NCBI RefSeq assembly: GCF_009469615.1
Contig: NZ_SSXX01000002.1
Coordinates: 485,001-549,000 of the forward strand
DNA from: Dechloromonas sp. H13
Lineage (GTDB): Bacteria > Pseudomonadota > Gammaproteobacteria > Burkholderiales > Rhodocyclaceae
Length of the DNA: 64,000 bases
Direction of reading: 5' to 3'
Shown here: piece after piece, positions 5,362-24,707 of the stretch
Layout: each line of letters opens with the position of its first letter
How positions within the stretch are numbered: position 1 is the first letter of the stretch
The notes under the pieces: generated by a model
What the model was told of the DNA's origin: nothing
What the model saw: only the letters and a program-made list of their open reading frames with translations
Databases searched by the model: none
Position numbers and translations under genes: made by a program

Positions 5362-5377
5362 TGGCACGCCTGTTGCT
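5362..5377 (+). promoter_or_regulatory. Sigma54 (-24/-12) promoter of nasA
   Basis: TGGCACG-N4-TTGCT matches the sigma54 consensus with correct GG-to-GC spacing. Transcription would start near 5388, leaving only about 14 untranslated bases before the nasA ATG at 5402. Unlike nirB, narK and nrtA, there is therefore no room for an RNA leader. No clear NtrC site lies in the short gap; a degenerate relative of the shared upstream motif is at 5254-5268 inside sspB. Confidence 0.85.
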
Positions 5378-8143: not shown

Positions 8144-9133
8144 ATGAGTTACGCCCAGTACATCAAGGAAATCGGTCGCGGCGCCGAGGGCGCGCGCGAC
8201 CTTTCCGCCGAGGATGCCCAACGCCTGTACGCGGCCATGCTCGATGGCGGTGTGCCTGACCTCGAGCTCGGGGCGATCATCCTCGGCCTGCGCGTCAAGG
8301 GCGAATCGCTCGACGAGATGCTCGGTTTTCTCGCGGCCACCGAGGAGCGCACCGAAATCATGCTGCGGCCGCACGGACGCGTGCGCCCGATTGTCCTGCC
8401 GACCTACAACGGCGCCCGCAAGGAAGCCAACCTGACCCCGTTGCTGGCGCTGATGCTGCAGCGCTTCGGCGTTCCCGTGCTGGTCCATGGCCTGCTCGAA
8501 GGCTATGGCCGGATCACCAGCGGCCACGTGTTTCGCGAACTCGGCATCATGCCGGCGGTTTCGGTGACCCAGGCGCAGGCGACGCTCGAGCAGAAGGGGC
8601 TGGCCTTCGTGCCGCTCAGCGCCATGGCGCCCGGCATCCACAACCTGCTCGCCCTGCGCGCCCGCCTCGGCGTGCGCAACAGCGCGCACAGCCTGGTCAA
8701 GATGCTCGACCCCTTCCGCGGCGAGGGCGTGCTGGTGGCGGCGGCGACCCACCCGGATTTCATCGAACTGATGCGCGACATGCTGCTGGCGCTCGATCGT
8801 CCCGGCCTCCTGCTGCGCGGCACCGAAGGCGAGCCGTTCGCCAATCCCAAGCGCCGGCCGCGCCTCGAATACGTGCATGACGGTTGTGCCGACATCCTGT
8901 TCGAAGCCGAGCACGACAGCCTGCGTGCCTTGCCCAACCTGCCCGAGGGCACCGATGCGGTGACCACCGCCGCCTGGATCCGCCGCGTCCTCGATCATCA
9001 GCTGCCGCTGCCCAAGCCGATCGCCAACCAGCTGGCATGCTGCCTGTTCGCTTCCGGCTACGCCGAGGACTTCAACCAGGCCAAGGCCATCGTCGCCGTC
9101 GAAGCCAGCAGTCTGGCCGCCAACGGCGGCTAG
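8144..9133 (+). CDS. ybiB: TrpD2/YbiB family protein (anthranilate phosphoribosyltransferase-like, nucleic-acid binding)
   Basis: A 329-residue protein with the anthranilate phosphoribosyltransferase fold: N-terminal helical domain (DLSAEDAQRLYAAMLDGGVPDLELGAIILGLRVKGE is the family's opening region) and a PRPP-type domain. The substrate motifs of TrpD are altered as in YbiB, for which DNA binding has been reported. It starts 18 bases after nasA and is probably co-transcribed from the nasA promoter. Its task in nitrate assimilation is unknown; similar linkages are seen in other proteobacteria. It is unlikely to be the tryptophan-pathway TrpD. Confidence 0.85.
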   Translation: MSYAQYIKEIGRGAEGARDLSAEDAQRLYAAMLDGGVPDLELGAIILGLRVKGESLDEMLGFLAATEERTEIMLRPHGRVRPIVLPTYNGARKEANLTPLLALMLQRFGVPVLVHGLLEGYGRITSGHVFRELGIMPAVSVTQAQATLEQKGLAFVPLSAMAPGIHNLLALRARLGVRNSAHSLVKMLDPFRGEGVLVAAATHPDFIELMRDMLLALDRPGLLLRGTEGEPFANPKRRPRLEYVHDGCADILFEAEHDSLRALPNLPEGTDAVTTAAWIRRVLDHQLPLPKPIANQLACCLFASGYAEDFNQAKAIVAVEASSLAANGG

Positions 9134-9145
9134 AAATTCCCCGTT

Positions 9146-9160
9146 TTGTTGCACCGCAAC
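9146..9160 (+). promoter_or_regulatory. Shared upstream motif TTGYTGCACYGCAAY, nirB copy
   Basis: TTGTTGCACCGCAAC fits the 15-base motif also found upstream of narK (15061) and nrtA (21388). It lies 94 bases before the nirB -24 element and contains the TGCACC half of an NtrC site. A second candidate NtrC site, GCCC-N7-GTGC, is at 9171-9185. Activator identity is inferred. Confidence 0.55.
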
Positions 9161-9190
9161 GGGCTGTGGCGCCCGTGTTTGGTGCAGGTC

Positions 9191-9228
9191 TGCTGCGGTC
9201 GACCATGTTGAAATGTAAAAAATCAACG
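9191..9228 (+). repeat. Dispersed TGCGGTCGACC-hairpin repeat, copy upstream of nirB
   Basis: TGCTGCGGTCGACC (9191-9204) is followed by a hairpin GTTGA (9207-9211) / TCAAC (9223-9227) with an A-rich 11-base loop. It lies between the NtrC-like sites and the sigma54 promoter of nirB. Confidence 0.6.
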
Positions 9229-9239
9229 GCTTAGATTGC

Positions 9240-9255
9240 TGGCACGGTGATTGCG
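9240..9255 (+). promoter_or_regulatory. Sigma54 (-24/-12) promoter of nirB
   Basis: TGGCACG-N4-TTGCG is a near-perfect sigma54 promoter. The expected start near 9266 gives a leader of about 120 bases before nirB. Confidence 0.9.
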
Positions 9256-9280
9256 AGCATCTGGCCAGGACAGCGATAGC

Positions 9281-9365
9281 CCGCCAACGAAGGCGGCTTC
9301 GGCCTAACGGCCAACCCTGTGGCAACGACGTCATGCGCTGATATGAATTTTGCACCCCCGGGTGC
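9281..9365 (+). promoter_or_regulatory. nirB leader RNA with ANTAR-type hexaloop hairpin
   Basis: CCGCC (9281-9285) pairs with GGCGG (9292-9296) around the loop AACGAA, a hexanucleotide with A1 and G4 as in targets of ANTAR antiterminators. Further 3' are GGCC/GGCC (9301-9312) and a strong hairpin GCACCC/GGGTGC (9352-9365) close to the ribosome site, without a T-run. Only one good hexaloop hairpin is visible, so the dual-hairpin rule is not fully met. Confidence 0.5.
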
Positions 9366-9385
9366 GCGCAACGTTGGAGCCAAAC

Positions 9386-11830
9386 ATGAGCAAACCCCGT
9401 CTCGTCCTGATCGGCAATGGCATGGCCGGTGTCCGCACCGTCGAAGAACTGTTGAAGATCAAGCCGGATCATTACGACATCACCATCTTCGGTGCCGAAC
9501 CGCACCCAAACTACAACCGCATCCTGCTTTCCCCGGTGCTGGCCGGCGAAATGACCATCCAGGAAATCGTCCTCAACGAACTGGACTGGTACAAGGAAAA
9601 CAACATCACGCTGCACACCGGCAAGCAGATCGCCAAGATCGACCGCGTGAACCGCAAGGTCGTCGCCGATGACGGCACCGAGGAGCACTACGACCGCCTG
9701 CTGATCGCCACCGGCTCGACGCCCTTCATGCTGCCGGTCCCCGGCAATGACCTGCCTGGCGTCATCGGCTACCGCGACATCAAGGACACCGACGAGATGA
9801 TCGACGCCGCGACCCGCCACAAGCACGCGGTCGTCATCGGCGGCGGCCTGCTCGGCCTGGAAGCGGCCAACGGTCTGAAGCTGCGCGGCATGGACGTCAC
9901 CGTCGTCCATCTCGGCCCGTGGCTGCTCGAGCGCCAGCTCGACGAAGTCGCCGGCCGCATGCTGCAGAAGTCGCTCGAAGACAAGGGCCTCAAGTTCCTG
10001 CTCGAAACCCAGACCGAGGCGCTGATCCAGGGCGAATCCGGTCGCGTCGCGGCGATCCGCTTCAAGGGCGGCATGCAGATCCCGGCCGACCTCGTCGTGA
10101 TGGCCGCCGGCATCCGCCCCAACTACGGTTTGGCCGAAAAGTCCGGCATCTACTGCAACCGCGGCATCGTCGTGAACGACACGATGCAGACCTACGATCC
10201 GAAGATCTATGCGGTCGGCGAATGCGTCAGCCACCGCGGTATCGCCTACGGCCTGGTCGCCCCGCTGTTCGAGCAGGCCAAGGTCGCCGCCAACCATCTG
10301 GCCGGCTACGGCATCGGCCGCTACACCGGCTCGGTGACCTCGACCAAACTCAAGGTGACCGGCATCGACCTGTTCTCGGCCGGCGATTTCATGGGTGGCA
10401 AGGACACCGAGGAAATCGTCCTCAACGACCCGCACGGCGGCGTGTACAAGAAGCTGGTGATCAAGGACAACAAGTTGGTCGGCGGCGTCATGTACGGCGA
10501 CACCGCCGACGGCCCGTGGTATTTCCAGCTGTTGAAGGACGGCCGCGACATCCACGACATCCGCGATTCGCTGATCTTCGGCCAGAACCTGGTCGGCGAC
10601 GTCGGCCACGCCGGCAAGAGCAAGGCCGCCGAAATGGCCGATTCGGCCGAGGTCTGCGGCTGCAACGGCGTGACCAAGGGCGTCATCGTGCAGGCGATCA
10701 AGGCCAAGGGCCTGTTCACGCTGGACGAGGTCAAGAAGCACACCAAGGCCGCCTCGTCCTGCGGCTCCTGCGCCGGTCTCGTCGAGCAGATCCTGGCGTC
10801 GACCATCGGCGGTGCCTACACCCCGGCGGCGCTCGATACCAAGCCGATGTGCGCCTGCACCGACCATTCGCACAAGGCGGTGCGCGAGGCCATCGTCGCC
10901 CAGCACCTGACGACCAAGGAAGCGATCTTCAAGGCGCTCGAATGGAAGACGCCGAACGGCTGCGACAAGTGCCGCCCGGCGGTGAACTACTACCTGATCT
11001 CGACCTTCCCGCACGAAGCCAAGGACGATCCGCAGTCGCGCTTCATCAATGAACGCGCCCACGCCAACATCCAGAAGGACGGCACCTACTCGGTCGTGCC
11101 GCGCATGTGGGGCGGCCTGACGACGCCGGCCGAACTGCGCGCCATCGCCGACGCCGCCGAGAAATACAACGTCCCGACGGTCAAGGTCACCGGCGGCCAG
11201 CGCATCGACCTGCTCGGCGTCAAGAAGGAAGACCTGCCGAAAATGTGGGCCGACCTCAACGCCGCCGGCATGGTCTCCGGCCACGCCTACGGCAAGTCGA
11301 TCCGCACCGTGAAGACCTGCGTCGGCGCCGAGCACTGCCGCTTCGGCACGCAGAAGTCGATGACCATGGGCATCAAGCTCGAGAAGATGCTGTTCGACAT
11401 GTACTCGCCGCACAAGGTCAAGCTGGCAGTTTCCGGCTGCCCGCGCAACTGCGCCGAAGCCGGCATCAAGGACGTCGGCGTGATCGGCGTTGATTCCGGC
11501 TACGAGCTGTACATCGGCGGCAACGGCGGCATCAAGACCGAAGTCGCGCAGTTCCTGTGCAAGGTCAGGACCGACGAGGAAGTCATGGAATATTCCGGCG
11601 CTTTCCTCCAGCTCTACCGCGAGGAGGGGTGGTACCTGGAGCGCACCTGCCACTACATGGAGCGCGTCGGCCTCGACTACATCAAGAGCAAGATCCTGGA
11701 AGACGAGGAAGGGCGCAAGGCGTACTACTTCCGCCTCCTCGACTCGCTGAAGGACGCCAAGGATCCATGGCAGACCTCACGCGAGGAACAGCCGATCAAG
11801 CAATTCATCCCGATCAAGCTCGAAGCCTGA
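9386..11830 (+). CDS. nirB: Nitrite reductase [NAD(P)H], large subunit
   Basis: An 814-residue siroheme nitrite reductase that makes ammonium from nitrite in the cytoplasm. It has an N-terminal FAD/NAD-binding module (LVLIGNGMAGVRTVEEL and AVVIGGGLLGLEAA), then two BFD-type [2Fe-2S] segments (VCGCNGVTK ... SSCGSCAG, and MCACTDHSHK ... NGCDKCRP). The C-terminal sulfite/nitrite reductase domain carries the siroheme-[4Fe-4S] cysteines (KTCVGAEHCRFG and SGCPRNCAEAG). ATG 9386 follows GGAG at 9376. nirD starts 22 bases after its stop. Confidence 0.97.
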   Translation: MSKPRLVLIGNGMAGVRTVEELLKIKPDHYDITIFGAEPHPNYNRILLSPVLAGEMTIQEIVLNELDWYKENNITLHTGKQIAKIDRVNRKVVADDGTEEHYDRLLIATGSTPFMLPVPGNDLPGVIGYRDIKDTDEMIDAATRHKHAVVIGGGLLGLEAANGLKLRGMDVTVVHLGPWLLERQLDEVAGRMLQKSLEDKGLKFLLETQTEALIQGESGRVAAIRFKGGMQIPADLVVMAAGIRPNYGLAEKSGIYCNRGIVVNDTMQTYDPKIYAVGECVSHRGIAYGLVAPLFEQAKVAANHLAGYGIGRYTGSVTSTKLKVTGIDLFSAGDFMGGKDTEEIVLNDPHGGVYKKLVIKDNKLVGGVMYGDTADGPWYFQLLKDGRDIHDIRDSLIFGQNLVGDVGHAGKSKAAEMADSAEVCGCNGVTKGVIVQAIKAKGLFTLDEVKKHTKAASSCGSCAGLVEQILASTIGGAYTPAALDTKPMCACTDHSHKAVREAIVAQHLTTKEAIFKALEWKTPNGCDKCRPAVNYYLISTFPHEAKDDPQSRFINERAHANIQKDGTYSVVPRMWGGLTTPAELRAIADAAEKYNVPTVKVTGGQRIDLLGVKKEDLPKMWADLNAAGMVSGHAYGKSIRTVKTCVGAEHCRFGTQKSMTMGIKLEKMLFDMYSPHKVKLAVSGCPRNCAEAGIKDVGVIGVDSGYELYIGGNGGIKTEVAQFLCKVRTDEEVMEYSGAFLQLYREEGWYLERTCHYMERVGLDYIKSKILEDEEGRKAYYFRLLDSLKDAKDPWQTSREEQPIKQFIPIKLEA

Positions 11831-11852
11831 TCACCGGAAAGGACACAAGAAC

Positions 11853-12164
11853 ATGAGCAACTGGAAACTGATCTGCAAGCTGGACGACATCCCGCAACTC
11901 GGCTCGCGGGTCGTGCAGCGCGCTACCGGCGGCGACATCGCCATCTTCCGCAATGCCGAGGACGAGGTCTTCGCGCTGCACGACAAGTGCCCGCACAAGG
12001 CCGGCCCGCTGTCGCAGGGCATCGTCCATGGCCGGCGGGTGACCTGCCCGCTGCACGGCTGGAACATCGGCCTCAATGATGGTCAGGCCGTGGCGCCCGA
12101 CGTCGGTTCGTGCTCGACCTTCCAGGTCAAGGTCGAGAACGGCGAGGTCTATCTGGCCCTCTGA
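11853..12164 (+). CDS. nirD: Nitrite reductase [NAD(P)H], small subunit
   Basis: A 103-residue Rieske-type protein with cluster ligands in CPHK (about residues 49-52) and CPLHGW (about 66-71). NirD partners NirB in assimilatory nitrite reduction. Length and motif spacing fit NirD, not a ring-hydroxylating ferredoxin, and it directly follows nirB behind a GGAAAGGA-type ribosome site. Confidence 0.95.
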   Translation: MSNWKLICKLDDIPQLGSRVVQRATGGDIAIFRNAEDEVFALHDKCPHKAGPLSQGIVHGRRVTCPLHGWNIGLNDGQAVAPDVGSCSTFQVKVENGEVYLAL

Positions 12165-12182
12165 GCGGCTTAAGCACTACGA

Positions 12183-12226
12183 GGGCCGGCAGTGCCGTCG
12201 GCCCGCTCGGTCCCAATGGTGGGATC
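12183..12226 (+). promoter_or_regulatory. ANTAR-target double hairpin upstream of the FNT channel gene
   Basis: Hairpin 1: GGGCCGGC (12183-12190) / GTCGGCCC (12197-12204), loop AGTGCC. Hairpin 2: GGTCCC (12209-12214) / GGGATC (12221-12226), loop AATGGT. Both loops are hexanucleotides with A1 and G4, and the linker is 4 bases. This is the published architecture bound by ANTAR-domain antiterminators such as NasT, which is encoded at 20782. Each stem includes one G-T pair. Confidence 0.72.
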
Positions 12227-12229
12227 CAG

Positions 12230-12260
12230 CTTCCCCGGCCTTGAGAGCAGGCCCGGGAGG
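12230..12260 (+). terminator. Candidate attenuator hairpin in the nirD-FNT gap
   Basis: The segments 12230-12241 and 12249-12260 form an 11-bp stem with one C-C mismatch, just after the double hairpin and before the FNT gene. The following bases (TTCCAAAACA) are not a T-run, so it may be a weak or factor-assisted attenuator or simply an mRNA-stabilising stem. GGGA of hairpin 2 could alternatively pair with TCCC at 12232-12235. Confidence 0.4.
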
Positions 12261-12295
12261 TTCCAAAACAAACCAAATCCGAAAAGGAAACCACC

Positions 12296-13108
12296 ATGGC
12301 CTATCTGGCACCCACCGAATTCGTCACGAAGATGATCGACGCAGGCGAATCGAAAATCTTCATGTCCACCCGCGACACCCTGATCCGCGCCTACATGGCC
12401 GGCGCCATCCTGTCGCTGGCTGCGGCCTTCGCAGTGACCGTCACCGTCCAGACCGGCCAGCCGCTGGTCGGCGCCATGCTTTTTCCGGTCGGCTTCATCC
12501 TGCTCTACCTGCTCGGTTTCGACCTGCTGACCGGGGTGTTCACGTTGTGCCCGCTGGCCCTGATCGACAAGCGCCCCGGCGTCACCACGAACGGCGTCCT
12601 GCGCAACTGGGGGCTGGTGTTTGTCGGCAACTTTGCCGGTGCGCTGACGGTGGCGGTGATGATGGCCATCATCTGGACCTATGGTTTCACCGAGGCGCCC
12701 AACGCTGTCGCCCAGAAGATCGGCACCATCGGTGAGGGCCGTACGGTGGGCTATTCGGCCCACGGCGCCGCCGGCATGCTGACGCTGTTCATCCGCGGGG
12801 TGCTGTGCAACTGGATGGTGTCCACCGGCGTCGTGTGCGCCATGATCTGCACCAACGTTTCGGGCAAGATCATGGCCATGTGGATGCCGATCATGGTCTT
12901 CTTCTACATGGGCTTCGAGCACTCCATCGTCAACATGTTCCTATTCCCGTCCGGCCTGATGCTCGGCGGTAACTTTACGATCATGGATTACCTGATCTGG
13001 AATGAAATTCCGACCGTTGTCGGCAACCTCGTCGGCGGTCTGGCCTTTGTCGGTCTGACGCTATATTCGACGCACGTCCGCACGGCACCGAAGCGCAAGG
13101 CCATCTGA
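12296..13108 (+). CDS. nirC: Formate/nitrite transporter (FNT) family channel, probable nitrite transporter
   Basis: A 270-residue integral membrane protein with six predicted helices and the FNT hallmarks: GNFAG (111-115), the GVLCNW segment (168-173) and the central-pore histidine H209 in FEHSIVNM. FNT channels move nitrite or formate across the inner membrane; directly behind nirBD, nitrite is the likely substrate. The leader carries its own ANTAR-type double hairpin (12183-12226), so expression may be set separately from nirBD. A terminator follows at 13130. The symbol is given by context and could equally be focA-like. Confidence 0.85.
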   Translation: MAYLAPTEFVTKMIDAGESKIFMSTRDTLIRAYMAGAILSLAAAFAVTVTVQTGQPLVGAMLFPVGFILLYLLGFDLLTGVFTLCPLALIDKRPGVTTNGVLRNWGLVFVGNFAGALTVAVMMAIIWTYGFTEAPNAVAQKIGTIGEGRTVGYSAHGAAGMLTLFIRGVLCNWMVSTGVVCAMICTNVSGKIMAMWMPIMVFFYMGFEHSIVNMFLFPSGLMLGGNFTIMDYLIWNEIPTVVGNLVGGLAFVGLTLYSTHVRTAPKRKAI

Positions 13109-13129
13109 TCCGTCCCGGTGCATGAAAGA

Positions 13130-13156
13130 GCCTCCGCCGCCTGGTTGGGGGCTTTT
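13130..13156 (+). terminator. Terminator after the FNT gene
   Basis: GCCTCC (13130-13135) pairs with GGGGGC (13147-13152, one G-T pair) and is followed by TTTT. It closes the nirBD-FNT transcription unit before the kinase gene. Confidence 0.7.
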
Positions 13157-13193
13157 CCAATTTTGGGCAGAATTTCGCGGTCGACCGCAGCAG
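13157..13193 (-). repeat. Dispersed TGCGGTCGACC-hairpin repeat, copy before the first kinase gene
   Basis: Read on the minus strand: CTGCTGCGGTCGACCGC (13193-13177) followed by the perfect CCAA/TTGG inverted repeat at 13157-13166. It lies directly between the FNT terminator and the start of the PP2C-kinase gene at 13207. Confidence 0.55.
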
Positions 13194-13206
13194 AGGCAGA
13201 ATTCCC

Positions 13207-14943
13207 ATGAGCCGTCATCTCAAAGTCGCTGTCGGGCAGTATTCCGACAAGGGGCGCAAGAACCTGAATCAGGATTTCCACGGGGTTTGCCTGCCCAGGG
13301 AGCCGCAGCTTTCCGCCAAGGGCGTCGCCGTGGCGCTGGCCGACGGGATCAGCAGCAGCCAGGTCAGCCAGGAGGCGGCGCAGTCGGCGGTCACCGGCTT
13401 TCTTGAGGATTACTATTGCACCTCGGACGCCTGGTCGGTGAAGAAATCCGGCGAGCATGTGCTGACGGCGACCAATTCCTGGCTGCATTCGCAAACCCAG
13501 CAGAGCCAGCACCGCTACGACCGCGAGCGCGGATACGTTTGCACCTTCAGCGGCCTGGTCATCAAGTCCACGACGGCGCACCTCTTCCACGTGGGCGATG
13601 CGCGCATCTACCGGCTGCGGGGGGGCGAGTTGATCCAACTCACCGAAGACCACCGTGTCTGGATGAATTCGCAGCAAAGCTACCTCGCCCGCGCCCTGGG
13701 TATGGATCGCAAGGTGGAGATCGACTATTTGCCGGTGCACCTGGCCGTCGGCGACCTCATGATCCTCTCTACCGACGGCGTTTACGAGCACACCGACCTC
13801 GGCGCCGTCCAGAGCGCCCTCGCCGCCGGTCCCGACCTCGATGCCGCCGCCCGGGCGATTGTCGAGGGCGCCCTGGAACGCGGCAGCGGCGACAACCTGA
13901 CCATCCAGTTGATTCGTATCGACGAATTGCCCGATCCGGAAGCCAACGAAGTCTTCCGGCAGATTTCCGACTTGCCGTGCCCGCCGCAACTCGAAGCGCG
14001 CAATGTTTTCGAGGGCTACCAGATCGTTCGCGTCATCAAGCGTAGCGCGCGCAGCCACATCTATCTGGCGGTCGATAGCGACACCGGCGAGCGGGTGGTG
14101 ATCAAGACACCCTCGGTCGACATGCAGGTCAACCCGGCGGCACTCGAACGCTTCCTGCTCGAAGAATGGATCGCCCGCCGCATCAATAGCACACATGTCC
14201 TGAAGCCGTGCTCGCAGACAAGGCAGCGCCAGAGCATCTACGTCGTTACCGAATACATCGAGGGCCAGACCCTGACGCAATGGATGATCGACAACCCCAA
14301 GCCCGATCTGGCAACGGTGCGCGCCATTCTGGAACAGGTCTCCAAGGGCCTGCAGGCCTTCCACAGGCTGGAGATGATCCATCAGGACCTGAAACCCGAC
14401 AACATCATGATCGACGGCACCGGTACCGTGAAAATCATTGATTTCGGCGCCACCCGCGTTGCCGGGCTCGAAGAAGTGGAAACGCCCATCGAGCAGATCA
14501 ACCTGCTCGGCGCGGCACTCTACGCGGCGCCGGAATATTTCCTTGGCGAACAGGGTGGCCAGCGCGCCGACCTTTACTCGCTTGGCGTCATTGCCTACCA
14601 GATGCTCTCCAGCGGCTTTCCCTACGGCACGCAGGTGCCCAAGTCACGCACCAAAGCGGCGCAGAAAAAACTCGTCTACAAGAGCGTGCTCAGCGAAGAG
14701 CGCGAGATTCCCGCCTGGGTCGACGACGCCATCCGCAAGGCTGTGCACCCCGACCCGCTGGAGCGCTACGACGAAATCTCGGAATTCATCTACGACCTGC
14801 ACCACCCGAACAAGGATTTCCTCAACAAGACCCGCCCGCCACTCATCGAGCGCAACCCAGTGATTTTCTGGAAGGGGGTTTCATTCGTGCTTGCGGTATT
14901 GCTCGTCGTTTCGCTGGTGGCACGGGCGCACAGCATCGGCTGA
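13207..14943 (+). CDS. Bifunctional PP2C-type phosphatase / Ser-Thr protein kinase, membrane anchored (first copy)
   Basis: A 578-residue fusion. Residues 1-240 are a PP2C phosphatase with metal ligands D23, D46-G47, D190-G191 and D229-N230. Residues 265-535 are a Hanks-type kinase with lysine K300, catalytic loop HQDLKPDN (392-399, HRD changed to HQD), DFG (412-414), APE (441-443) and D455. The glycine loop is degenerate. A single C-terminal membrane helix (about 554-574) would place both domains in the cytoplasm. Substrates are unknown. From general knowledge, Pseudomonas has one such gene in its nas cluster; a second paralogue lies at 17369. Confidence 0.9.
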   Translation: MSRHLKVAVGQYSDKGRKNLNQDFHGVCLPREPQLSAKGVAVALADGISSSQVSQEAAQSAVTGFLEDYYCTSDAWSVKKSGEHVLTATNSWLHSQTQQSQHRYDRERGYVCTFSGLVIKSTTAHLFHVGDARIYRLRGGELIQLTEDHRVWMNSQQSYLARALGMDRKVEIDYLPVHLAVGDLMILSTDGVYEHTDLGAVQSALAAGPDLDAAARAIVEGALERGSGDNLTIQLIRIDELPDPEANEVFRQISDLPCPPQLEARNVFEGYQIVRVIKRSARSHIYLAVDSDTGERVVIKTPSVDMQVNPAALERFLLEEWIARRINSTHVLKPCSQTRQRQSIYVVTEYIEGQTLTQWMIDNPKPDLATVRAILEQVSKGLQAFHRLEMIHQDLKPDNIMIDGTGTVKIIDFGATRVAGLEEVETPIEQINLLGAALYAAPEYFLGEQGGQRADLYSLGVIAYQMLSSGFPYGTQVPKSRTKAAQKKLVYKSVLSEEREIPAWVDDAIRKAVHPDPLERYDEISEFIYDLHHPNKDFLNKTRPPLIERNPVIFWKGVSFVLAVLLVVSLVARAHSIG

Positions 14944-14977
14944 CGCGGTCAACCGGGAGTCTTGGCCAAAAATGGCT
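14942..14977 (+). repeat. Dispersed repeat, divergent copy at the 3' end of the first kinase gene
   Basis: ACGCGGTCAACCG overlaps the kinase stop codon and is followed by the hairpin GCCA (14965-14968) AAAA TGGC (14973-14976). The core has GTCAACC instead of GTCGACC. Confidence 0.45.
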
Positions 14978-15060
14978 GGCGGGCACGCCATTGGCCGAGG
15001 CGGATCCGGTGGAGGGCAAGACGGGTCATACGGAGCGCTTTGGTATCGGCGCGAAAACAA

Positions 15061-15101
15061 TTGCTGCACCGCAATGAAGAACGGTGCATTGAATTGGTGC
15101 G
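15061..15101 (+). promoter_or_regulatory. NtrC-like upstream activating region of narK
   Basis: This is the informative part of the 345-base gap 14944-15288. TTGCTGCACCGCAAT (15061-15075) is the narK copy of the motif shared with nirB and nrtA, 93 bases before the -24 element. TGCATT-N5-GGTGCG (15085-15101) matches the NtrC consensus TGCACC-N5-GGTGCA at 9 of 12 positions. The stretch 14986-15060 shows nothing I can name. Confidence 0.6.
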
Positions 15102-15153
15102 GTTTGACCGGGAAGGCTGAAGCGAAAAGCCCGATTTTGGCGCGAAACGGACT

Positions 15154-15169
15154 TGGCACGGTAATCGCT
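15154..15169 (+). promoter_or_regulatory. Sigma54 (-24/-12) promoter of narK
   Basis: TGGCACG-N4-TCGCT: the -24 half is perfect and the -12 half has TCGC in place of TTGC. Expected start near 15180, giving a leader of about 109 bases. Confidence 0.78.
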
Positions 15170-15190
15170 TACTCAAAAATAACGCCGTAG

Positions 15191-15270
15191 CACCTACCAA
15201 TGGAGGTAGGTGGATGACAACGATGTCCACGTTGATCTAATCCTTTCAAACTAGGGGTCGTCTTCGACCC
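15191..15270 (+). promoter_or_regulatory. narK leader RNA with ANTAR-type hexaloop hairpin
   Basis: CACCTACC (15191-15198) pairs perfectly over 8 bp with GGTAGGTG (15205-15212) around loop AATGGA (A1, G4). A second hairpin CAACG/CGTTG (15218-15234) has a 7-base loop, so it departs from the hexaloop rule. A third, GGGTCG/CGACCC (15255-15270), lacks a T-run. The first hairpin begins about 11 bases after the expected transcript start. Confidence 0.6.
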
Positions 15271-15288
15271 TGCTACGAGAGCACGCAC

Positions 15289-16503
15289 ATGGACAAAAAA
15301 TCATTCCTGCAGGCCGGCCATACGCCGACCCTGCTCGCCGCCTTCCTCTACTTCGACCTCGCCTTCATGGTCTGGGTCATCCTCGGCCCGCTCGGCGTCG
15401 GCATCGCCAAGGATCTCGGACTGAGCCACGCCGAAAAGGGCCTGATGGTCGCCACCCCGGTGCTGGCCGGCGCGCTGCTGCGCATCGTCATGGGCATTCT
15501 GGTCGATCGCCTGTCGCCCAAGAAGGCGGCGATCATCGGCCAGGTCGTCGTCATCGGCGCCATGCTCTATGCCTGGTTGGTCGGCGTCCATTCCTACGGC
15601 GAAGTGCTGGTCCTCGGCCTCTTCCTCGGCGTCGCCGGCGCCTCCTTCGCCGCCGCGCTGCCGCTCGCCTCGCGCTGGTATCCGGCCGAGCACCAGGGCA
15701 CGGCGATGGGCATCGCCGGCGCCGGTAACTCCGGCACCGCCCTCGCCGCGCTGTTCGCGCCCGGCCTGGCCGCTGCCTTTGGCTGGACCAACGTCTTCGG
15801 CATCGTGCTGATTCCGTTGGTCATCGTGCTGATCGCCTTCGTCTTCATGGCCAAGGACGCGCCGGACGCGCCGCCGCCCAAGACCTTGGCCGAGTACCTG
15901 AAGGTCCTCAAGGACAAGGACGCCTGGTGGTTCATGTTCTTCTACTCGGTCACCTTCGGCGGCTTTGTCGGCCTCGCCTCGTCGCTGGTCATCTACTTCA
16001 ACACCCAGTACGGCCTCGACCCCAAGATGGCGGGCTTCTTCACCGCCGGCTGCGTCTTCGCCGGCTCGCTGGTGCGCCCGATCGGCGGCAACGTCGCCGA
16101 CCGCGTCGGCGGTGTCAAATCGCTGACCGTGATGTACATCTTCGCCGCCATCTTCCTGGCCATTGTCAGCTTCGGCCTGCCGGAAGCCTGGATGGCGCTG
16201 GTCGTCTTCGTATGCGCCATGCTCTCGCTCGGCATGGGCAACGGCGCCGTGTTCCAGCTGGTGCCGCAGCGCTTCAAGAAGGAAATCGGCGTCATGACCG
16301 GTCTCGTCGGCATGGCCGGCGGCGTCGGCGGCTTCTACCTGGCGTCCAGCCTCGGCTACTCGAAGCAGATGACCGGCAGCTACCAGATGGGCTTCCTGAT
16401 CTTCGCCGCGCTGGCCGTGCTCGCCCTGGTCGGCCTGACCGGCGTCAAGACCCGCTGGCGCACGACCTGGGGCGCCAGCCACCTGACGACGGCCAAGATC
16501 TGA
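15289..16503 (+). CDS. narK: NarK/NasA-family nitrate (nitrate/nitrite) transporter, MFS
   Basis: A 404-residue major facilitator with 12 predicted helices. It carries the family's nitrate-signature glycine-rich segments (GIAGAGNSGTALAALFAP in the N-half and GLVGMAGGVGGFYLA in the C-half) and the arginine-containing helix (GALLRIVMGILVDR). It imports nitrate for the cytoplasmic NasA. It is preceded by a sigma54 promoter and an ANTAR-type leader, and followed 28 bases later by the P-box protein gene, which is probably co-transcribed. Confidence 0.93.
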   Translation: MDKKSFLQAGHTPTLLAAFLYFDLAFMVWVILGPLGVGIAKDLGLSHAEKGLMVATPVLAGALLRIVMGILVDRLSPKKAAIIGQVVVIGAMLYAWLVGVHSYGEVLVLGLFLGVAGASFAAALPLASRWYPAEHQGTAMGIAGAGNSGTALAALFAPGLAAAFGWTNVFGIVLIPLVIVLIAFVFMAKDAPDAPPPKTLAEYLKVLKDKDAWWFMFFYSVTFGGFVGLASSLVIYFNTQYGLDPKMAGFFTAGCVFAGSLVRPIGGNVADRVGGVKSLTVMYIFAAIFLAIVSFGLPEAWMALVVFVCAMLSLGMGNGAVFQLVPQRFKKEIGVMTGLVGMAGGVGGFYLASSLGYSKQMTGSYQMGFLIFAALAVLALVGLTGVKTRWRTTWGASHLTTAKI

Positions 16504-16531: not shown

Positions 16532-17323
16532 ATGAAAAGAAGGCAATTTCTGGCGTCGACCGCAGCGCTGCTGTTCGCCCCGACGGTTTTCGCCGCCGAA
16601 GCGGGCAAGGGCAGCCTGACCGTGGGCGCGGCGATCAACAAGGCCGGCCGCCAGCGCATGCTGTCGCAGCGCATGGCCAAGGCCTACGCCATGCAGGTGG
16701 CCGGCGTCATGCCGGACAAGGCGGGCAGCCTGCTCGAACAGTCGCGCCGCCTGTTCGAGGCGCAGCTCGCCGAGCTGAAGACGCTGGCGCCGACCGAGGC
16801 GATCCAGGCTGCGCTCGCCGATCTCGACAAGGCCTGGGCGGCCTACCGCGACGTGCTCGGCCGCCCGCGCACGCCGGAAAACGGCCGCCTGGTGCTGGTC
16901 GAGTCCGAGAAGACCCTGCGCGCCGCGCACGCGCTGACCGGGCTCTACGAAAAGCAGGCGGCGAACGGCGCCGGCCATCTGGTCAACATTTCCGGCCGCC
17001 AGCGCATGCTGTCGCAGCGCATGGCCAAGTGTTTCCTGTTCGAGCAGTCGGGGGTCGGTTCCGACCAGCTGAAGAGCGAGCTGGAGGCGGCGCGCCGCGA
17101 TTTCGTCGCCGCCCTGGCCGAACTCAACGCGGCGCCGCAGAACACGCCGGAGATCCGCACCGAACTGGGGCTCGCCAACACGCAGTGGCTGTTCTTCGAG
17201 CAGGCGCTCAACGGCAAGGAAAGCCGCGACATCGCCGCGCGCAACGTGGCGACGACCAGCGAGCGCATCCTCGAGGTGATGGACGGCCTGACCGGCCAGT
17301 ACGAAAAGCTGGTGCGCGCGTGA
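16532..17323 (+). CDS. Exported protein with two PilJ/NarX-type nitrate-box domains
   Basis: A 263-residue protein with an N-terminal export signal (MKRRQFLASTAALLFAPTVFA, with RR that may suit Tat) and no later membrane helix, so it should be periplasmic. Two tandem halves each carry GRQRMLSQRMAK (about residues 39-50 and 155-166), preceded by INKA or NIS. This is the PilJ N-terminal domain motif and resembles the nitrate-binding P-box of NarX. Placed directly after narK, it could be a soluble nitrate-binding or sensing protein. No catalytic domain is present, and the function is inferred from motif and context only. Confidence 0.85.
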   Translation: MKRRQFLASTAALLFAPTVFAAEAGKGSLTVGAAINKAGRQRMLSQRMAKAYAMQVAGVMPDKAGSLLEQSRRLFEAQLAELKTLAPTEAIQAALADLDKAWAAYRDVLGRPRTPENGRLVLVESEKTLRAAHALTGLYEKQAANGAGHLVNISGRQRMLSQRMAKCFLFEQSGVGSDQLKSELEAARRDFVAALAELNAAPQNTPEIRTELGLANTQWLFFEQALNGKESRDIAARNVATTSERILEVMDGLTGQYEKLVRA

Positions 17324-17368
17324 TGGTGCGGCGGGGCGGTGGCGCGCGGGCAGGGTAGTATCCGCTCC

Positions 17369-19075
17369 ATGGGAACCCAGCAGAACAACCGCCTCCGCCT
17401 CGCCGTCGGCCATTCCTCGCTGACCGGCCCGCGCGAGCGCAACGAGGACTATTGCGGCGTCGTCACGCCGGAAGGCCAGGAGCTCGCCAACAAGGGCGTC
17501 ATTGCCGCCGTCGCCGACGGCATCGGCGGCCACAAGGGCGGGCGCGAGGCGGCCGAGTACACGGTGCGCGGCCTGCTCTCCGACTATTTCGCGACGCCCG
17601 ACACCTGGGGCGTCCCGCGCGCCATCGAGACGGTGACGACGGCGCTCAACCGCTGGGTGATCGCCGAGGGCAGCCGCAACGCCGAGCTGGCCGGCATGGC
17701 GACGACGCTGTCGGTCCTCGTCCTGCGCGGTCGACGCTACTACACGGCCCATATCGGCGACAGCCGCATCTATCGCCTGCAGGATGGGCGCTTGCTGCCG
17801 CTGACCGTCGACCACACCTGGGAACACCCGGAACTCAACAACGTGCTGTCGCGCGCCATCGGCCTCGACCCGCGCGTGCTAATGGATTTTACCGACGGCG
17901 ACCTGGCGGTCGACGATCGTTTCCTGCTCGTTTCTGACGGCATCTGGGGCGTCCTGCCCGATGCGCTGATCGCCGAGGTGCTGCTCGATCACCCCGAGCC
18001 GCAGGCCGCCGCCGCCGCGCTGACCAGCCTGGCGCTGGCCCAGGGCGGCCACGACAATGCGACCGCCGTCGTCGTCGACGTCCTCGCCCTGCCGGCGAAC
18101 AGCCTGCGCGACAGCCTGGAGAGTGCCGCCAGCCTGCCGTTGCCGCATCGCCTCAAGGTCGGCCACGAGCTGGACGGGCTGATCGTCGAGGAAATCCTCC
18201 ACGATGCACGGGAAACGCTGCTCTACCGCGTGCGCAATCCGCGCAGCGGCCAGCAGCTGGTGCTCAAGACCCTGCAGCCGACTATGACCGGTGACGCCGA
18301 CGCGAGCGCTGCGCTGCTGATGGAGGAGTGGCGGGCCCGGCGCGTCGTTTCGCCCTTCTTCCCGCAGGTCGTGCCGGCCGAGGACAAGAGCTGCCTCTAC
18401 TACCTGATGACCTGGCACGCCGGCGCGACGCTGCAGGCGCGGCTCGACGCCGACCAGCATTTTCCGGCCGGCGAGGTGGTGCGGCTCGGCATCGCGCTGC
18501 TCAAGGGCATCGCCACGCTGCACCGGCTCGACATCGTGCATCGCGACATCAAGACCGACAACCTCCACCTCGGCCAGGACGGCGTGCTGCGCATCCTCGA
18601 CCTCGGCGTCGCCCTCAGCCTCGGCGAGCGCAAGCCGGACGATCCCGTGGGCCAGGCCGGCACGCCGTCGTACATGGCGCCGGAGCTGTTCGAGGGGGCG
18701 CCGCCGGCGCCGGGCTTCGATCTTTATGCCGCCGGTGTTACGCTGTATCACCTGCTGACCCGCAAATATCCCTATGGCGAGATCGAGCCCTTCCAGAAGC
18801 CGAAATTCGGCGAGCCCGCCCGCCCGACCCGCTGGCGGCCGGAGATTCCCGGCTGGCTGGAGAACCTCCTGCTCAAGGCCGTGGCGCGCGAGGCGAAGGA
18901 CCGCTTCGAAACTGCCGAGGAGTTCCTGCTGGCGCTCGAACGCGGGGCCGCGCGGCCGGTCGCCGCGCCCGGCCGGCAGCCGCTGGTGCAGCGCAACCCG
19001 CTCATGCTGTGGAAGCTCGTCGCCGCGGCATCGCTCGCGGTCAACCTCGTTTTATTGCTCAAATTGCTGCGCTAG
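17369..19075 (+). CDS. Bifunctional PP2C-type phosphatase / Ser-Thr protein kinase, membrane anchored (second copy)
   Basis: A 568-residue paralogue of the 13207 gene with the same layout. The PP2C part has E26-D27, D50-G51, D190-G191 and D229-N230. The kinase part has K300, HRDIKTDN (391-398), DLG in place of DFG (411-413), APE (437-439) and D451. A C-terminal helix lies at about 546-566. The catalytic loop is canonical here, whereas the first copy has HQD; the first copy has DFG, whereas this one has DLG. ATG 17369 is chosen over an in-frame GTG at 17339 because the family starts here; no strong ribosome site is visible. It follows the P-box gene by 45 bases. Confidence 0.88.
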   Translation: MGTQQNNRLRLAVGHSSLTGPRERNEDYCGVVTPEGQELANKGVIAAVADGIGGHKGGREAAEYTVRGLLSDYFATPDTWGVPRAIETVTTALNRWVIAEGSRNAELAGMATTLSVLVLRGRRYYTAHIGDSRIYRLQDGRLLPLTVDHTWEHPELNNVLSRAIGLDPRVLMDFTDGDLAVDDRFLLVSDGIWGVLPDALIAEVLLDHPEPQAAAAALTSLALAQGGHDNATAVVVDVLALPANSLRDSLESAASLPLPHRLKVGHELDGLIVEEILHDARETLLYRVRNPRSGQQLVLKTLQPTMTGDADASAALLMEEWRARRVVSPFFPQVVPAEDKSCLYYLMTWHAGATLQARLDADQHFPAGEVVRLGIALLKGIATLHRLDIVHRDIKTDNLHLGQDGVLRILDLGVALSLGERKPDDPVGQAGTPSYMAPELFEGAPPAPGFDLYAAGVTLYHLLTRKYPYGEIEPFQKPKFGEPARPTRWRPEIPGWLENLLLKAVAREAKDRFETAEEFLLALERGAARPVAAPGRQPLVQRNPLMLWKLVAAASLAVNLVLLLKLLR

Positions 19076-20781: not shown

Positions 20782-21357
20782 ATGCTTACCGTACTCGTCA
20801 TCGATGAATCCCGTTCGCGGGCTGGAGAAATCTGCGCCGGGCTGGCGCTCGCCGGCTATCAGGTGGCCGCCATCCTGGCCGGCTCGGAAAACCTGACGGC
20901 AGAGGTGGAGAAACTCCAGCCCGACGTCATCCTGATCGACACCGACAGCCCGAGCCGCGACACGCTGGAAAATCTGGCGGCGATGCACAAGGACATGCCA
21001 CGGCCGGTCGTCATCTTCACCCAGGAAGACGGCCAGGCGACCATCCGCGACGCCGTCAGGGCGGGCGTTTCGGCCTACGTGGTGGATGGCCTCGATCCCA
21101 GGCGCATCAAGCCCATCGTCGAGGTGGCGCGCGCCCGTTTCGAGGATACGCAGGCACTGCGCCGCGAGCTCGACGAGATTTCGCAGAAGCTTTCCGAGCG
21201 CAAGCTGGTCGACAAGGCCAAGGGCGTGCTGATGAAGGCGCGCGGGCTCGACGAGGACGCGGCCTACCACGCCATGCGCAAGCTGGCGATGGAGCGCGGC
21301 CAGACGATGGCCAAGGTGGCGCGCGACGTCATCGACATGGCGCGCGTCCTACTCTGA
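20782..21357 (+). CDS. nasT: NasT-type response regulator with ANTAR RNA-binding domain
   Basis: A 191-residue protein. Residues 1-120 form a receiver domain with D8-E9, D53 and T80 but without the usual C-terminal lysine, as in NasT. Residues 130-190 are an ANTAR domain (RKLVDKAKGVLMKARGLDED, then AYHAMRKLAMERGQTMAKVA). NasT binds leader RNA hairpins with hexaloops and prevents transcription termination when nitrate is present. Targets are predicted in this window upstream of nirB, the FNT gene, narK and nrtA. In other bacteria NasT is held back by the nitrate sensor NasS; no cytoplasmic NasS-like protein lies here. Confidence 0.93.
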   Translation: MLTVLVIDESRSRAGEICAGLALAGYQVAAILAGSENLTAEVEKLQPDVILIDTDSPSRDTLENLAAMHKDMPRPVVIFTQEDGQATIRDAVRAGVSAYVVDGLDPRRIKPIVEVARARFEDTQALRRELDEISQKLSERKLVDKAKGVLMKARGLDEDAAYHAMRKLAMERGQTMAKVARDVIDMARVLL

Positions 21358-21513: not shown

Positions 21514-21530
21514 ATGGTCCTCGTGAAACG

Positions 21531-21595
21531 CACGGTCAATGGCGGCCGGGCAGGAATCCGATCGGTTCGGTCGGATTCCGGGGACAAGGGCGTCC
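21531..21595 (+). promoter_or_regulatory. nrtA leader RNA with two ANTAR-type hexaloop hairpins
   Basis: Hairpin 1: CGGTC (21533-21537) / GGCCG (21544-21548), loop AATGGC. Hairpin 2: GGAC (21582-21585) / GTCC (21592-21595), loop AAGGGC. Both loops have A1 and G4. A separate 9-bp hairpin GGAATCCGA/TCGGATTCC (21553-21579) lies between them, so spacing is longer than the usual short linker. GGGCG (21588-21592) and CACC (21595-21598) could instead pair with CGCCC and GGTG inside the downstream terminator. Confidence 0.6.
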
Positions 21596-21620
21596 ACCTG
21601 TGCTGCCGGGATTTTGCGGC

Positions 21621-21646
21621 ATGGGTGTGGCGCCCATTTTGTTTTT
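21621..21646 (+). terminator. Intrinsic terminator (attenuator) in the nrtA leader
   Basis: ATGGGT (21621-21626) pairs with GCCCAT (21632-21637, one T-G pair) around a 5-base loop and is followed by TTTGTTTTT. It lies about 100 bases into the predicted transcript and 27 bases before the nrtA start, the position expected for a terminator controlled by NasT antitermination. Confidence 0.68.
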
Positions 21647-21672
21647 CGATTCAAGCAATCAAGGAGCAAGCA

Positions 21673-22938
21673 ATGGAAGACAACACTCTGGCGCCTAAGT
21701 CCAAGTCGTCCTTTTCTCGTCGTGACTTTGTTTCAGCCGCTTTGGGAGCATCGCTAATGTCCATGGTACCCCCCGGCGTCCGCAGCGGTGCCTGGGCCGC
21801 CGGTTCGGATGCCCCCGAAAAGAAGGAAGTCAAGATCGGCTTCATTCCCCTCACCGACTGCGCCTCCGTCGTCATGGCGGCGGTCAACAAGTTCGATGAG
21901 AAATACGGCATCAAGATCATCCCGACCAAGGAAGCCTCGTGGGCTTCGGTGCGCGACAAGCTGGTCAATGGCGAGCTTGACGCCGCCCACGTGCTGTACG
22001 GCCTGATCTACGGCGTGCAGTTGGGCATCGGCGGTCCCAAGAAGGACATGGCGTCCCTGATGACCCTGAACAACAACGGTCAGGCGATCACGCTTTCGAA
22101 CCAGATGCGCGACAAGGGCGCGACCGACGGCGCCAGCCTGGCTGCCCTGATCGCCAAGAAGGAAAAGGAATACACCTTCGCCCAGACCTTCCCGACCGGC
22201 ACCCACGCCATGTGGCTGTACTACTGGCTGGCGGCCAACGGCGTCAATCCGCTGAAGGACGTCAAGACGATCACCGTGCCGCCGCCGCAGATGGTGGCCA
22301 ACATGCGCGTCGGCAACATGGACGGTTTCTGCGTCGGCGAGCCGTGGAACAACCGCGCGATCATGGACAACATCGGCTTCACCGCGGTGACGACGCAGGA
22401 CATCTGGGTCGACCACCCGGAAAAGGTGCTCGGCACCACCGCCGAATGGGTGCAGAAGAACCCGAATACGGCGCGTGCCATGGTCGCCGCCATTCTCGAT
22501 GCCGGCAAGTGGATCGACGCCTCGCTGCCGAACAAGCAGAAGACGGCCGAAACCATCGCCCAGAAGGCCTACGTCAATACCGACACCGAAGTCATCGTCG
22601 CCCGCATGCTCGGCCGCTACCAGAACGGCCTCGGCAAGAGCTGGGACGACAAGAACCACATGAAGTTCTTCAACGATGGGGCGGTGAATTACCCTTACCT
22701 GTCCGACGGCATGTGGTTCATGACCCAGCACAAGCGCTGGGGGCTGCTCAAGAGCCATCCCGATTACCTGGCGATCGCCAAGCAGGTCAACCGCATCGAC
22801 GTCTACAAGCAGGGTGCCGCCGCCGCCGGCGTCGCGCTGCCCAAGAGCGACATGCGCAGCAGCAAGCTGATCGACGGCGTCGTCTGGGATGGCAAGGATC
22901 CGGCGAAGTACGCCGACGGATTCAAGGTCAAGGCCTGA
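21673..22938 (+). CDS. nrtA: Nitrate ABC transporter, substrate-binding protein
   Basis: A 421-residue protein of the NrtA/CmpA family. The N-terminus has a Tat signal (SRRDFVSAALGASLMS, residues 15-30; likely cleavage after AWA near 42), so it works in the periplasm. The mature part matches nitrate-binding proteins (KIGFIPLTDCASVVMAAV, FPTGTHAMWLYYWLAANG, NMRVGNMDGFCVGEPWNNRA). ATG 21673 follows AAGGAG. It heads the nrtABD unit behind a sigma54 promoter and attenuated leader. The exported signal argues against it being the cytoplasmic sensor NasS, its close relative. Confidence 0.93.
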   Translation: MEDNTLAPKSKSSFSRRDFVSAALGASLMSMVPPGVRSGAWAAGSDAPEKKEVKIGFIPLTDCASVVMAAVNKFDEKYGIKIIPTKEASWASVRDKLVNGELDAAHVLYGLIYGVQLGIGGPKKDMASLMTLNNNGQAITLSNQMRDKGATDGASLAALIAKKEKEYTFAQTFPTGTHAMWLYYWLAANGVNPLKDVKTITVPPPQMVANMRVGNMDGFCVGEPWNNRAIMDNIGFTAVTTQDIWVDHPEKVLGTTAEWVQKNPNTARAMVAAILDAGKWIDASLPNKQKTAETIAQKAYVNTDTEVIVARMLGRYQNGLGKSWDDKNHMKFFNDGAVNYPYLSDGMWFMTQHKRWGLLKSHPDYLAIAKQVNRIDVYKQGAAAAGVALPKSDMRSSKLIDGVVWDGKDPAKYADGFKVKA

Positions 22939-23906: not shown

Positions 23907-24707
23907 ATGGAAAAATTCGTACAGATCGAAGCGGTGGGCCAGACTTTCGACACCAAGAAGGGCAAGTTCGTCGCCCTGCGCGATATCGACCTGACCATCA
24001 AACAGGGCGAATTCATCGCGCTGATCGGCCACTCCGGCTGCGGCAAATCGACCCTGCTCAACCTGATCGCCGGCCTGACCCGGCCGACCACCGGCGTGCT
24101 GCTCTGCGACGGCCGCGAGATCGGCGGCCCGGGACCCGAGCGCGCGGTGGTCTTCCAGAACCACAGCCTGCTGCCCTGGCTGACCTGCTTCGAGAACGTC
24201 TACCTGGCCGTCGAGCGCGTGTTCGGCGCCAAGGAGGGCAAGGCCAAGCTCAAGGAGCGTACTGCCGCTGCGATCAGCCTGGTCGGCCTCGACCACGCCA
24301 GCAGCAAGTACCCGCATGAAATCTCCGGCGGCATGAAGCAGCGCGTCGGCATCGCCCGTGCGTTGTCGATGGAACCCAAGGTGTTGCTGATGGACGAGCC
24401 CTTCGGCGCCCTCGACGCGCTGACCCGCGCCAAGCTGCAGGACGAGCTGATGAAGATCTGCGAGGCCACCCGGGCGACCACCGTCATGGTCACCCACGAT
24501 GTCGACGAGGCCGTGCTGCTCTCCGATCGCATCGTCATGATGACCAACGGCCCGGCGGCGACCATCGGCGAAATCCTCGAGGTCAAGCTGCCGCGCCCGC
24601 GCGAGCGCCTGACCCTGGCGCACGACCCGGCCTACATCGACTACCGCGCCGCGGTGCTCGAATTCCTCTACGAAAAGCAGGCGCACGTCGAAAAGATGGC
24701 TGCCTGA
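23907..24707 (+). CDS. nrtD: Nitrate ABC transporter, ATP-binding protein
   Basis: A 266-residue ABC ATPase with Walker A GHSGCGKST (about residues 41-49), Q-loop FQNHSLLPWLT, signature ISGGMKQR, Walker B VLLMDEPFGALD and switch histidine in VTHDVDEA. It is of the NrtD/SsuB/TauB class without the C-terminal NrtA-like domain of NrtC. It energises nitrate uptake with NrtA and NrtB. It is the last gene of the operon, followed by a terminator at 24761. Confidence 0.93.
   Translation: MEKFVQIEAVGQTFDTKKGKFVALRDIDLTIKQGEFIALIGHSGCGKSTLLNLIAGLTRPTTGVLLCDGREIGGPGPERAVVFQNHSLLPWLTCFENVYLAVERVFGAKEGKAKLKERTAAAISLVGLDHASSKYPHEISGGMKQRVGIARALSMEPKVLLMDEPFGALDALTRAKLQDELMKICEATRATTVMVTHDVDEAVLLSDRIVMMTNGPAATIGEILEVKLPRPRERLTLAHDPAYIDYRAAVLEFLYEKQAHVEKMAA

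Follow-up and report, generated by a model that had tools for sequence, protein, structure and literature searches.

The window analysed here is a 64,000-nucleotide stretch of the Dechloromonas sp. H13 genome (contig NZ_SSXX01000002.1, positions 485,001 to 549,000 of the forward strand), in which nirB and nirD are followed by a gene encoding a formate/nitrite transporter (FNT), while a NasT-like protein is encoded further downstream. The nirD and FNT genes are separated by a gap of 131 bases (12165-12295), which harbors two short hairpins, P1 and P2, followed by a GC-rich hairpin. The principal features are listed below, with all positions being those of the window.

9386..11830, + strand: nirB (TIGR02374, above cut-off)
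11853..12164, + strand: nirD (TIGR02378, above cut-off)
12183..12204, + strand: P1 hairpin, GGGCCGGC / AGTGCC / GTCGGCCC, 8 bp including one G-U
12191-12196, + strand: loop L1 of P1, AGTGCC (from the sequence)
12205..12208, + strand: linker GCTC between P1 and P2 (from the sequence)
12209..12226, + strand: P2 hairpin, GGTCCC / AATGGT / GGGATC, 6 bp including one G-U
12215-12220, + strand: loop L2 of P2, AATGGT (from the sequence)
12233..12257, + strand: GC-rich hairpin without a U-tract
12296..13108, + strand: FNT gene (Pfam PF01226, 1.1e-63; NCBIfam TIGR00790, below its cut-off)
20782..21357, + strand: NasT-like protein, receiver plus ANTAR domain

Two PP2C-phosphatase/protein-kinase fusions (13207-14943 and 17339-19075) are encoded beside the nitrite channel and a NarK-type transporter gene, with a PilJ-domain protein (16532-17323) encoded between them.

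The P1/P2 element spans 12183-12226, and its 3′ end is located approximately 70 bases before the FNT start. The form described in the earlier note, namely stems of 8 and 6 bp with A1/G4 hexaloops and a 4-base linker within the 131-base gap, is confirmed from the sequence, and sequence, folding and comparison agree on two stems of at least 3 bp, as in ANTAR targets. The linker measures 4 nt where P2 is counted as 6 bp, and 5-6 nt where P2 is counted as 4-5 bp; in the available text of PMC3369931, the native linkers of the Enterococcus faecalis eut RNAs are 5-12 nt long, while those of 3 and 14 nt are impaired. When the window was scanned for stem pairs bearing A1/G4 hexaloops, the element ranked first of two matches (score 37 vs 27). 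A best score of 37 was also attained in 1/30 simulated windows matched in dinucleotide composition, and as such the score is unusual but not decisive by itself. The 44-nt element folds at -26.5 kcal/mol (z -3.56), a value equalled by 0/200 shuffles. The hexaloop reading of P2 carries the caveat that A1 of L2 is able to pair with U6, for which reason RNAfold draws P2 with a tetraloop. The exact P1 pattern (GGGCCGGC-N6-GYCGGCCC) occurs only once in the genome, which rules out a repetitive element, while Rfam at its gathering thresholds returned two tRNAs and no other match in the window.

Copies of the element were spotted by eye in the FNT loci of five of the first 60 genomes (the H13 genome itself, G034, G005, G016 and G027). 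A model built from these five copies (R1) was run on 76 Azonexus/Dechloromonas genomes, with matches below E 1e-6 considered strong. Matches at E 0.1 or better were found in 18/76 genomes, and the strong copies number 13, in 12/76 genomes, all 13 being located within the nirD-FNT gap. Across 297 genomes of the family, strong R1 matches were limited to G000 and G034, with none in another genus. Among the weaker matches, that of G370 represents a degenerate copy, likewise located in the nirD-FNT gap, where the P2 stem is intact but L2 reads GTCGTC and the start reads AATCCATGG, while the remaining weaker matches resemble different hairpins.

Both A1 and G4 are kept in L1 and L2 of 13/13 copies. 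They are the sole invariant positions of L1, which occurs in seven versions, whereas L2 is AATGGT in twelve copies and AATGGC in one, as would be expected if L2 had a second partner. The linker is GGCC in 11/13 copies (AGCC in G034), and in the former state it can also pair with the UGGCC of AUG GCC. P1 has a pairing probability of 1.00 in 13/13 copies and, being nearly invariant, is uninformative on covariation. In P2, pair 29-42 is C-G in seven copies and U-A in six, while pair 27-44 is A-U in six, G-C in one, G-U in one and unpaired in five. Standard pairs make up 96.7% of the pair cells (as high in 12/500 shuffles), and seven cells are changed on both sides (reached by 1/500 shuffles), while the number of pairs with such a change, two, both in P2, was reached by 152/500 shuffles. 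The compensatory changes looked for in the relatives are thus present, but the covariation appears modest, involving two P2 pairs and mainly one of them (29-42). Taken together, the copies across the genus, the conserved A1/G4 positions and the covariation appear decisive for the reality of the element. Its assignment to the ANTAR-target RNAs, as advanced in the earlier note, is well supported by its form, the conserved loop positions, the compensatory changes and the single NasT-like ANTAR protein that the genome encodes, the binding of which is predicted.

The NasT-like protein is the only ANTAR protein of the genome. Its top solved-structure matches are 6wsh (a response regulator), 1s8n (a putative antiterminator), 4akk (a nitrate regulatory protein, which we take to be NasR) and 1qo0 (AmiR). 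An ANTAR domain is present in 65/76 genus genomes, including 10/12 of those bearing the element. No ANTAR protein was found in the other two, G378 and G380, which are draft assemblies combining the FNT element with strong leader matches to a second model (R2), built from eight nirB and narK leaders. By hand count, R2 matches at E 1e-4 or better occur in 60/65 ANTAR-bearing genomes and in 2/11 without an ANTAR protein, namely G378 and G380. In G011, which is 99% complete and in which no ANTAR protein was found, the nirD-FNT gap is without the element and the nirB leader has diverged. The 58-base gap of this genome (L010) contains a GC hairpin with a run of eight T seven bases on, which constitutes a terminator-like site.

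The usual nitrate sensor and partner of NasT is NasS, which presumably belongs under Pfam NMT1_2. The sole NMT1_2 match of the H13 genome is the gene after nasT (21514-22938; likely true start about 21673). A Tat-type signal is present in its product, and nearby lies a gene for an ABC ATPase (23907-24707); because of these two features the protein looks NrtA-like, and it was not taken as NasS. With this as its one NMT1_2 match, no NasS was found in the genome, and NasT here seems to be without its usual partner. A response to nitrate is for this reason an assumption in H13, and the tuning of nitrite transport to nitrate that the earlier note had envisaged is unproven. Some relatives, such as G034, harbor two NMT1_2-type genes by nasT, while in G025 (L031/L300) the NrtA-like gene beside nasT is interrupted by an in-frame stop within the signal region.

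A potential second partner of L2 is found at the FNT start, where the following features can be observed.

12216..12222, + strand: AUGGUGG, proposed anti-start strand, shared by L2 and the 3′ arm of P2
12284..12288, + strand: AAGGA, Shine-Dalgarno-like, of the FNT gene (from the sequence)
12291..12298, + strand: CCACCATG, FNT start region and proposed anti-start partner

The AUGGUGG strand is exactly complementary to CCACCAU (12291-12297) at the FNT start codon, and CCACCATG and ATGGTGGG each occur once in the window, both strands counted. The duplex between P2 and the start, at -18.1 kcal/mol, is the best among 31 start regions selected heuristically, the next best having -14.0, and its strength was reached by 1/2000 shuffles of the upstream 25 bases. 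Furthermore, CCACCATG is present at 11/13 FNT starts with the element vs 0/25 without it, the latter comprising 15 nirD-adjacent genes and 10 located elsewhere and including G038 and G059 of other families (38 rows in all). The two copies without the exact CCACCAT are G380b and G378. Outside the 38-row set, G017, where the FNT gene is cut by the contig end, has a short gap without the element and AACCATG, with no CCACCATG.

In most copies the computed folds compete. With 30 coding bases included, the start helix has a probability above 0.5 in 9/13 copies, with 0.99 for the H13 copy, and of 0.18 or less in four (G027, G034, G356 and G378). With the same 30 coding bases, the start region was unpaired at a mean of 0.76 once P1 and P2 were enforced, as opposed to 0.39 before, at a cost of 0 to 3.5 kcal/mol, a result to be read with the caveat that enforcing P2 releases the partner of AUGGUGG by construction; in the same four copies the start opened by 0.14 or less. 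Native starts pair with the P2 region at a mean of 0.44, compared with 0.07 for foreign starts (24 per element, G360 left out), although individual foreign starts pair up to 0.83 with the P2 of the window. With 12 coding bases, pairing to the P2 region is 0.17 or less in 5/13 copies, the fifth being G380b, and when the H13 copy is folded from further upstream with its 3′ end at codon 2, it is P2 and not the start helix that appears in the minimum-energy fold.

On an FNT tree that left out G380a, G359 and G360, the association between element and start was not significant (median p 0.5; table 10, 2, 0, 23; 35 rows), in a test that is weak because only two contrasts fall on well-supported branches, and the element and its start context could be exchanged as one block. 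The closely related FNT genes L107 (G171) and L108 (G356) have different gaps, with the ANTAR element and CCACCATG in G356, and a different hairpin and CAGCCATG in G171, which suggests a gap exchange.

The nirB gene is likewise preceded by an ANTAR leader, in which the following parts can be distinguished.

9240..9254, + strand: sigma-54-type promoter match before nirB, exact TGGCACN5TTGC
9271..9340, + strand: nirB ANTAR leader, with P0, P1, an extra hairpin and P2
9271-9275/9336-9340, + strand: P0 closing stem
9281-9296, + strand: P1, loop AACGAA
9301-9312, + strand: extra hairpin between P1 and P2
9319-9334, + strand: P2, loop AACGAC
9366..9382, + strand: right arm of an alternative helix over the Shine-Dalgarno-like GGAG of nirB (9376-9379)

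The leader of the window folds with a z of -1.98, and the extra hairpin is also found in G016, G017 and G035. In the minimum-energy fold, an arm of P2 is paired with the Shine-Dalgarno segment in 9/9 nirB leaders folded, that of the window included. A larger set comprised 30 leaders with distinct P2-to-start sequences, from 31 found; L134, which belongs to another genus and is not an ANTAR leader, was dropped, while L232 and L236, for which an upstream ATG had been taken as the start, were retained. At the core of the alternative helix, eleven pairs (out1-3, mid1-5, in1-3) are conserved in 30/30 leaders, mostly because the sequence hardly varies. A single both-sides change occurs, in G035, the outer and some of the inner pairs are not always kept, and P1 shows four cells changed on both sides. 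Enforcing P1 and P2 on nine leaders cost 2.0 to 7.7 kcal/mol and increased access to the Shine-Dalgarno by at least 0.19 in seven of them (not L058 and L060), while access to the start region was lower in 7/9, such that the computed gain lends mixed support to a switch at nirB. Of two nirB-like leaders of other genera, that of G090 has a minimum-energy fold joining the P2 arm to the Shine-Dalgarno segment, while the minimum-energy fold of G071 forms P2. A pairing of GGCAAAG with CUUUGCC noted by eye in the nirB leader of G206 was not counted, its minimum-energy fold pairing AGGGG with CCCCU.

A third ANTAR-like leader precedes the gene for the NarK-type transporter.

15191..15227, + strand: ANTAR-like leader before the NarK-type transporter gene, with loops AATGGA (P1) and AACGAT (P2), P2 of only 3 bp

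This leader is not among the R2 matches in the H13 genome and, by eye only, has no clear pairing between loop and start, while a comparison of leaders revealed narK-type ANTAR-like leaders in relatives as well. The narK leader of G206 folds as the nirB leaders do, with GAC opposite GUC, and the alternative helix is absent from three narK rows folded with the nirB set and from L265 and L268.

Exact TGGCAC-N5-TTGC matches are located in the window at 5362, 9240 and 21498, with a one-mismatch match at 15154, and each of these is only suggestive since, with one mismatch allowed, ten matches were found against 5.65 expected. Two consensus scans found the nirD-FNT gap to be free of sigma-70- and sigma-54-type matches, and with the exact match at 9240 before nirB the element is probably carried inside the nirB transcript, in keeping with its placement within the nirBD transcription unit in the earlier note. 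By the mechanism described for the EutV, NasR and NasT leaders in the available text of the reports cited below, a terminator overlapping or following P2 would halt transcription before FNT, and NasT holding P1-P2 would permit read-through. The GC hairpin six bases after P2 could be viewed as such a terminator, and a factor-dependent or non-canonical terminator could also serve. The gaps of 13/13 copies, however, hold no U-tract, which by that criterion leaves them without an intrinsic terminator. Their longest T-run between P2 and the ATG is 2 to 4, and although a hairpin of at least 5 bp lies in this interval in 11/13 copies, the best one is followed by three T or fewer in the next ten bases. 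A scan of the + strand from 8900 to 15400 found no terminator-like site, and the GC hairpin is also present in relatives without P1/P2 (G001, G018 and G335), such that it occurs independently of the element. Antitermination of the intrinsic type, as implied in the earlier note, is not borne out by these copies, and we consider classical ANTAR antitermination at this gap to be rather unlikely.

The gap could alternatively contain an ordinary cluster of intercistronic hairpins that stabilise or process the nirBD/FNT mRNA, with its ANTAR appearance being a coincidence or a relic. Consistent with this, element-free relatives can hold other hairpins in the gap (by eye; G171, G350 and G366 among others), an equal scan score arose in one of the random windows, and the element is restricted to 12/76 genomes, in two of which no ANTAR protein was found. 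Set against this are the restriction of L1 invariance to A1 and G4, the compensatory nature of the P2 changes and the ANTAR protein in 10/12 element genomes, the two exceptions having strong R2 leader matches, and a mere hairpin cluster appears improbable to us. ANTAR binding has also been reported to repress translation in actinobacteria, including mycobacterial RNAs that overlap the ribosome-binding site (PMC8164766, in the text available), and NasT bound to the element might by analogy block the ribosome. Here, however, P1-P2 ends some 70 bases before the start, leaving the ribosome site outside, and holding P1-P2 is computed to open the start region, which renders repression very improbable.

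The mechanism best supported by these data, to which we would give an even chance, is that the element, read by NasT, turns on translation of the FNT channel. The P1/P2 element would represent an ANTAR-target RNA within the nirBD-FNT transcript. In the absence of NasT, the AUGGUGG of the P2 loop and 3′ arm would pair with CCACCAU, such that the AUG of FNT is hidden and the GC hairpin between the paired strands is looped out. NasT gripping P1-P2 would hold P2 in place, leaving the start region free and FNT translated. We infer the binding of NasT, the switch itself, its direction and its input signal from the conserved hairpins, the complementarity to the start and the computed folds. The nirB leader may follow a similar plan, with an arm of its P2 alternating with the helix covering the Shine-Dalgarno. 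The earlier note had the channel controlled separately from nirBD; since nirB possesses an ANTAR leader of its own, a wholly separate control is not supported, and the element would add no more than a further checkpoint answering to that same regulator. More tentatively, and somewhat short of an even chance, NasT may across the genus be chiefly a translational activator, with P2 alternating at nirB and FNT (in G206 also at narK) with a helix concealing the Shine-Dalgarno or start, the sequestering helix taking the place of a terminator and some genomes, such as that of H13, doing without NasS.

Such a translational switch, in which a helix hiding the start or Shine-Dalgarno competes with P2, would provide a concrete and testable route by which an ANTAR protein activates translation. 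The internal copy at FNT would gate nitrite entry a second time, after transcription of the operon, and the genus offers a natural contrast in that the same channel gene occurs with and without the element. Among the matches listed in our literature search, which covered few subscription papers, no NasT/ANTAR element activating translation by release of a start site was recognised.

The double hairpin was defined by Ramesh et al. 2012 (PMC3369931), who reported matches close to genes for nitrite reductase and nitrate/nitrite transporters and, for matches lacking a terminator, suggested translational control as needing testing, as far as the available text goes. The target RNAs of EutV, NasR and AmiR described there share with our element the two short hairpins, A1/G4 hexaloops and short linker. 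Those characterised RNAs, however, employ an intrinsic terminator, while in the element none is seen and the competing partner is a start codon. For the NasT leaders of Bradyrhizobium, Paracoccus and Pseudomonas, the accessible portions of the reports describe antitermination (PMC6759348, PMC5424462, PMC12830290). These systems resemble ours in having a NasT-type regulator and nitrate/nitrite assimilation genes, but differ in that a translational switch is proposed here. In the Bradyrhizobium report, as available, NasT hairpins are predicted at narK and bjgb, which are placed in one operon (PMC6759348), and an operon-internal site such as that before FNT thus has a precedent, while the part of the Paracoccus report consulted proposes an effect of nitrate on the translation of Nas proteins, with no RNA mechanism given there (PMC5424462). 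The actinobacterial ANTAR RNAs, in the text at hand (PMC8164766), share with the element a tie to translation initiation. In those RNAs the double hairpin itself contains the ribosome-binding site or AUG, and binding is repressive, whereas in the Dechloromonas element the start is located downstream and activation is proposed.
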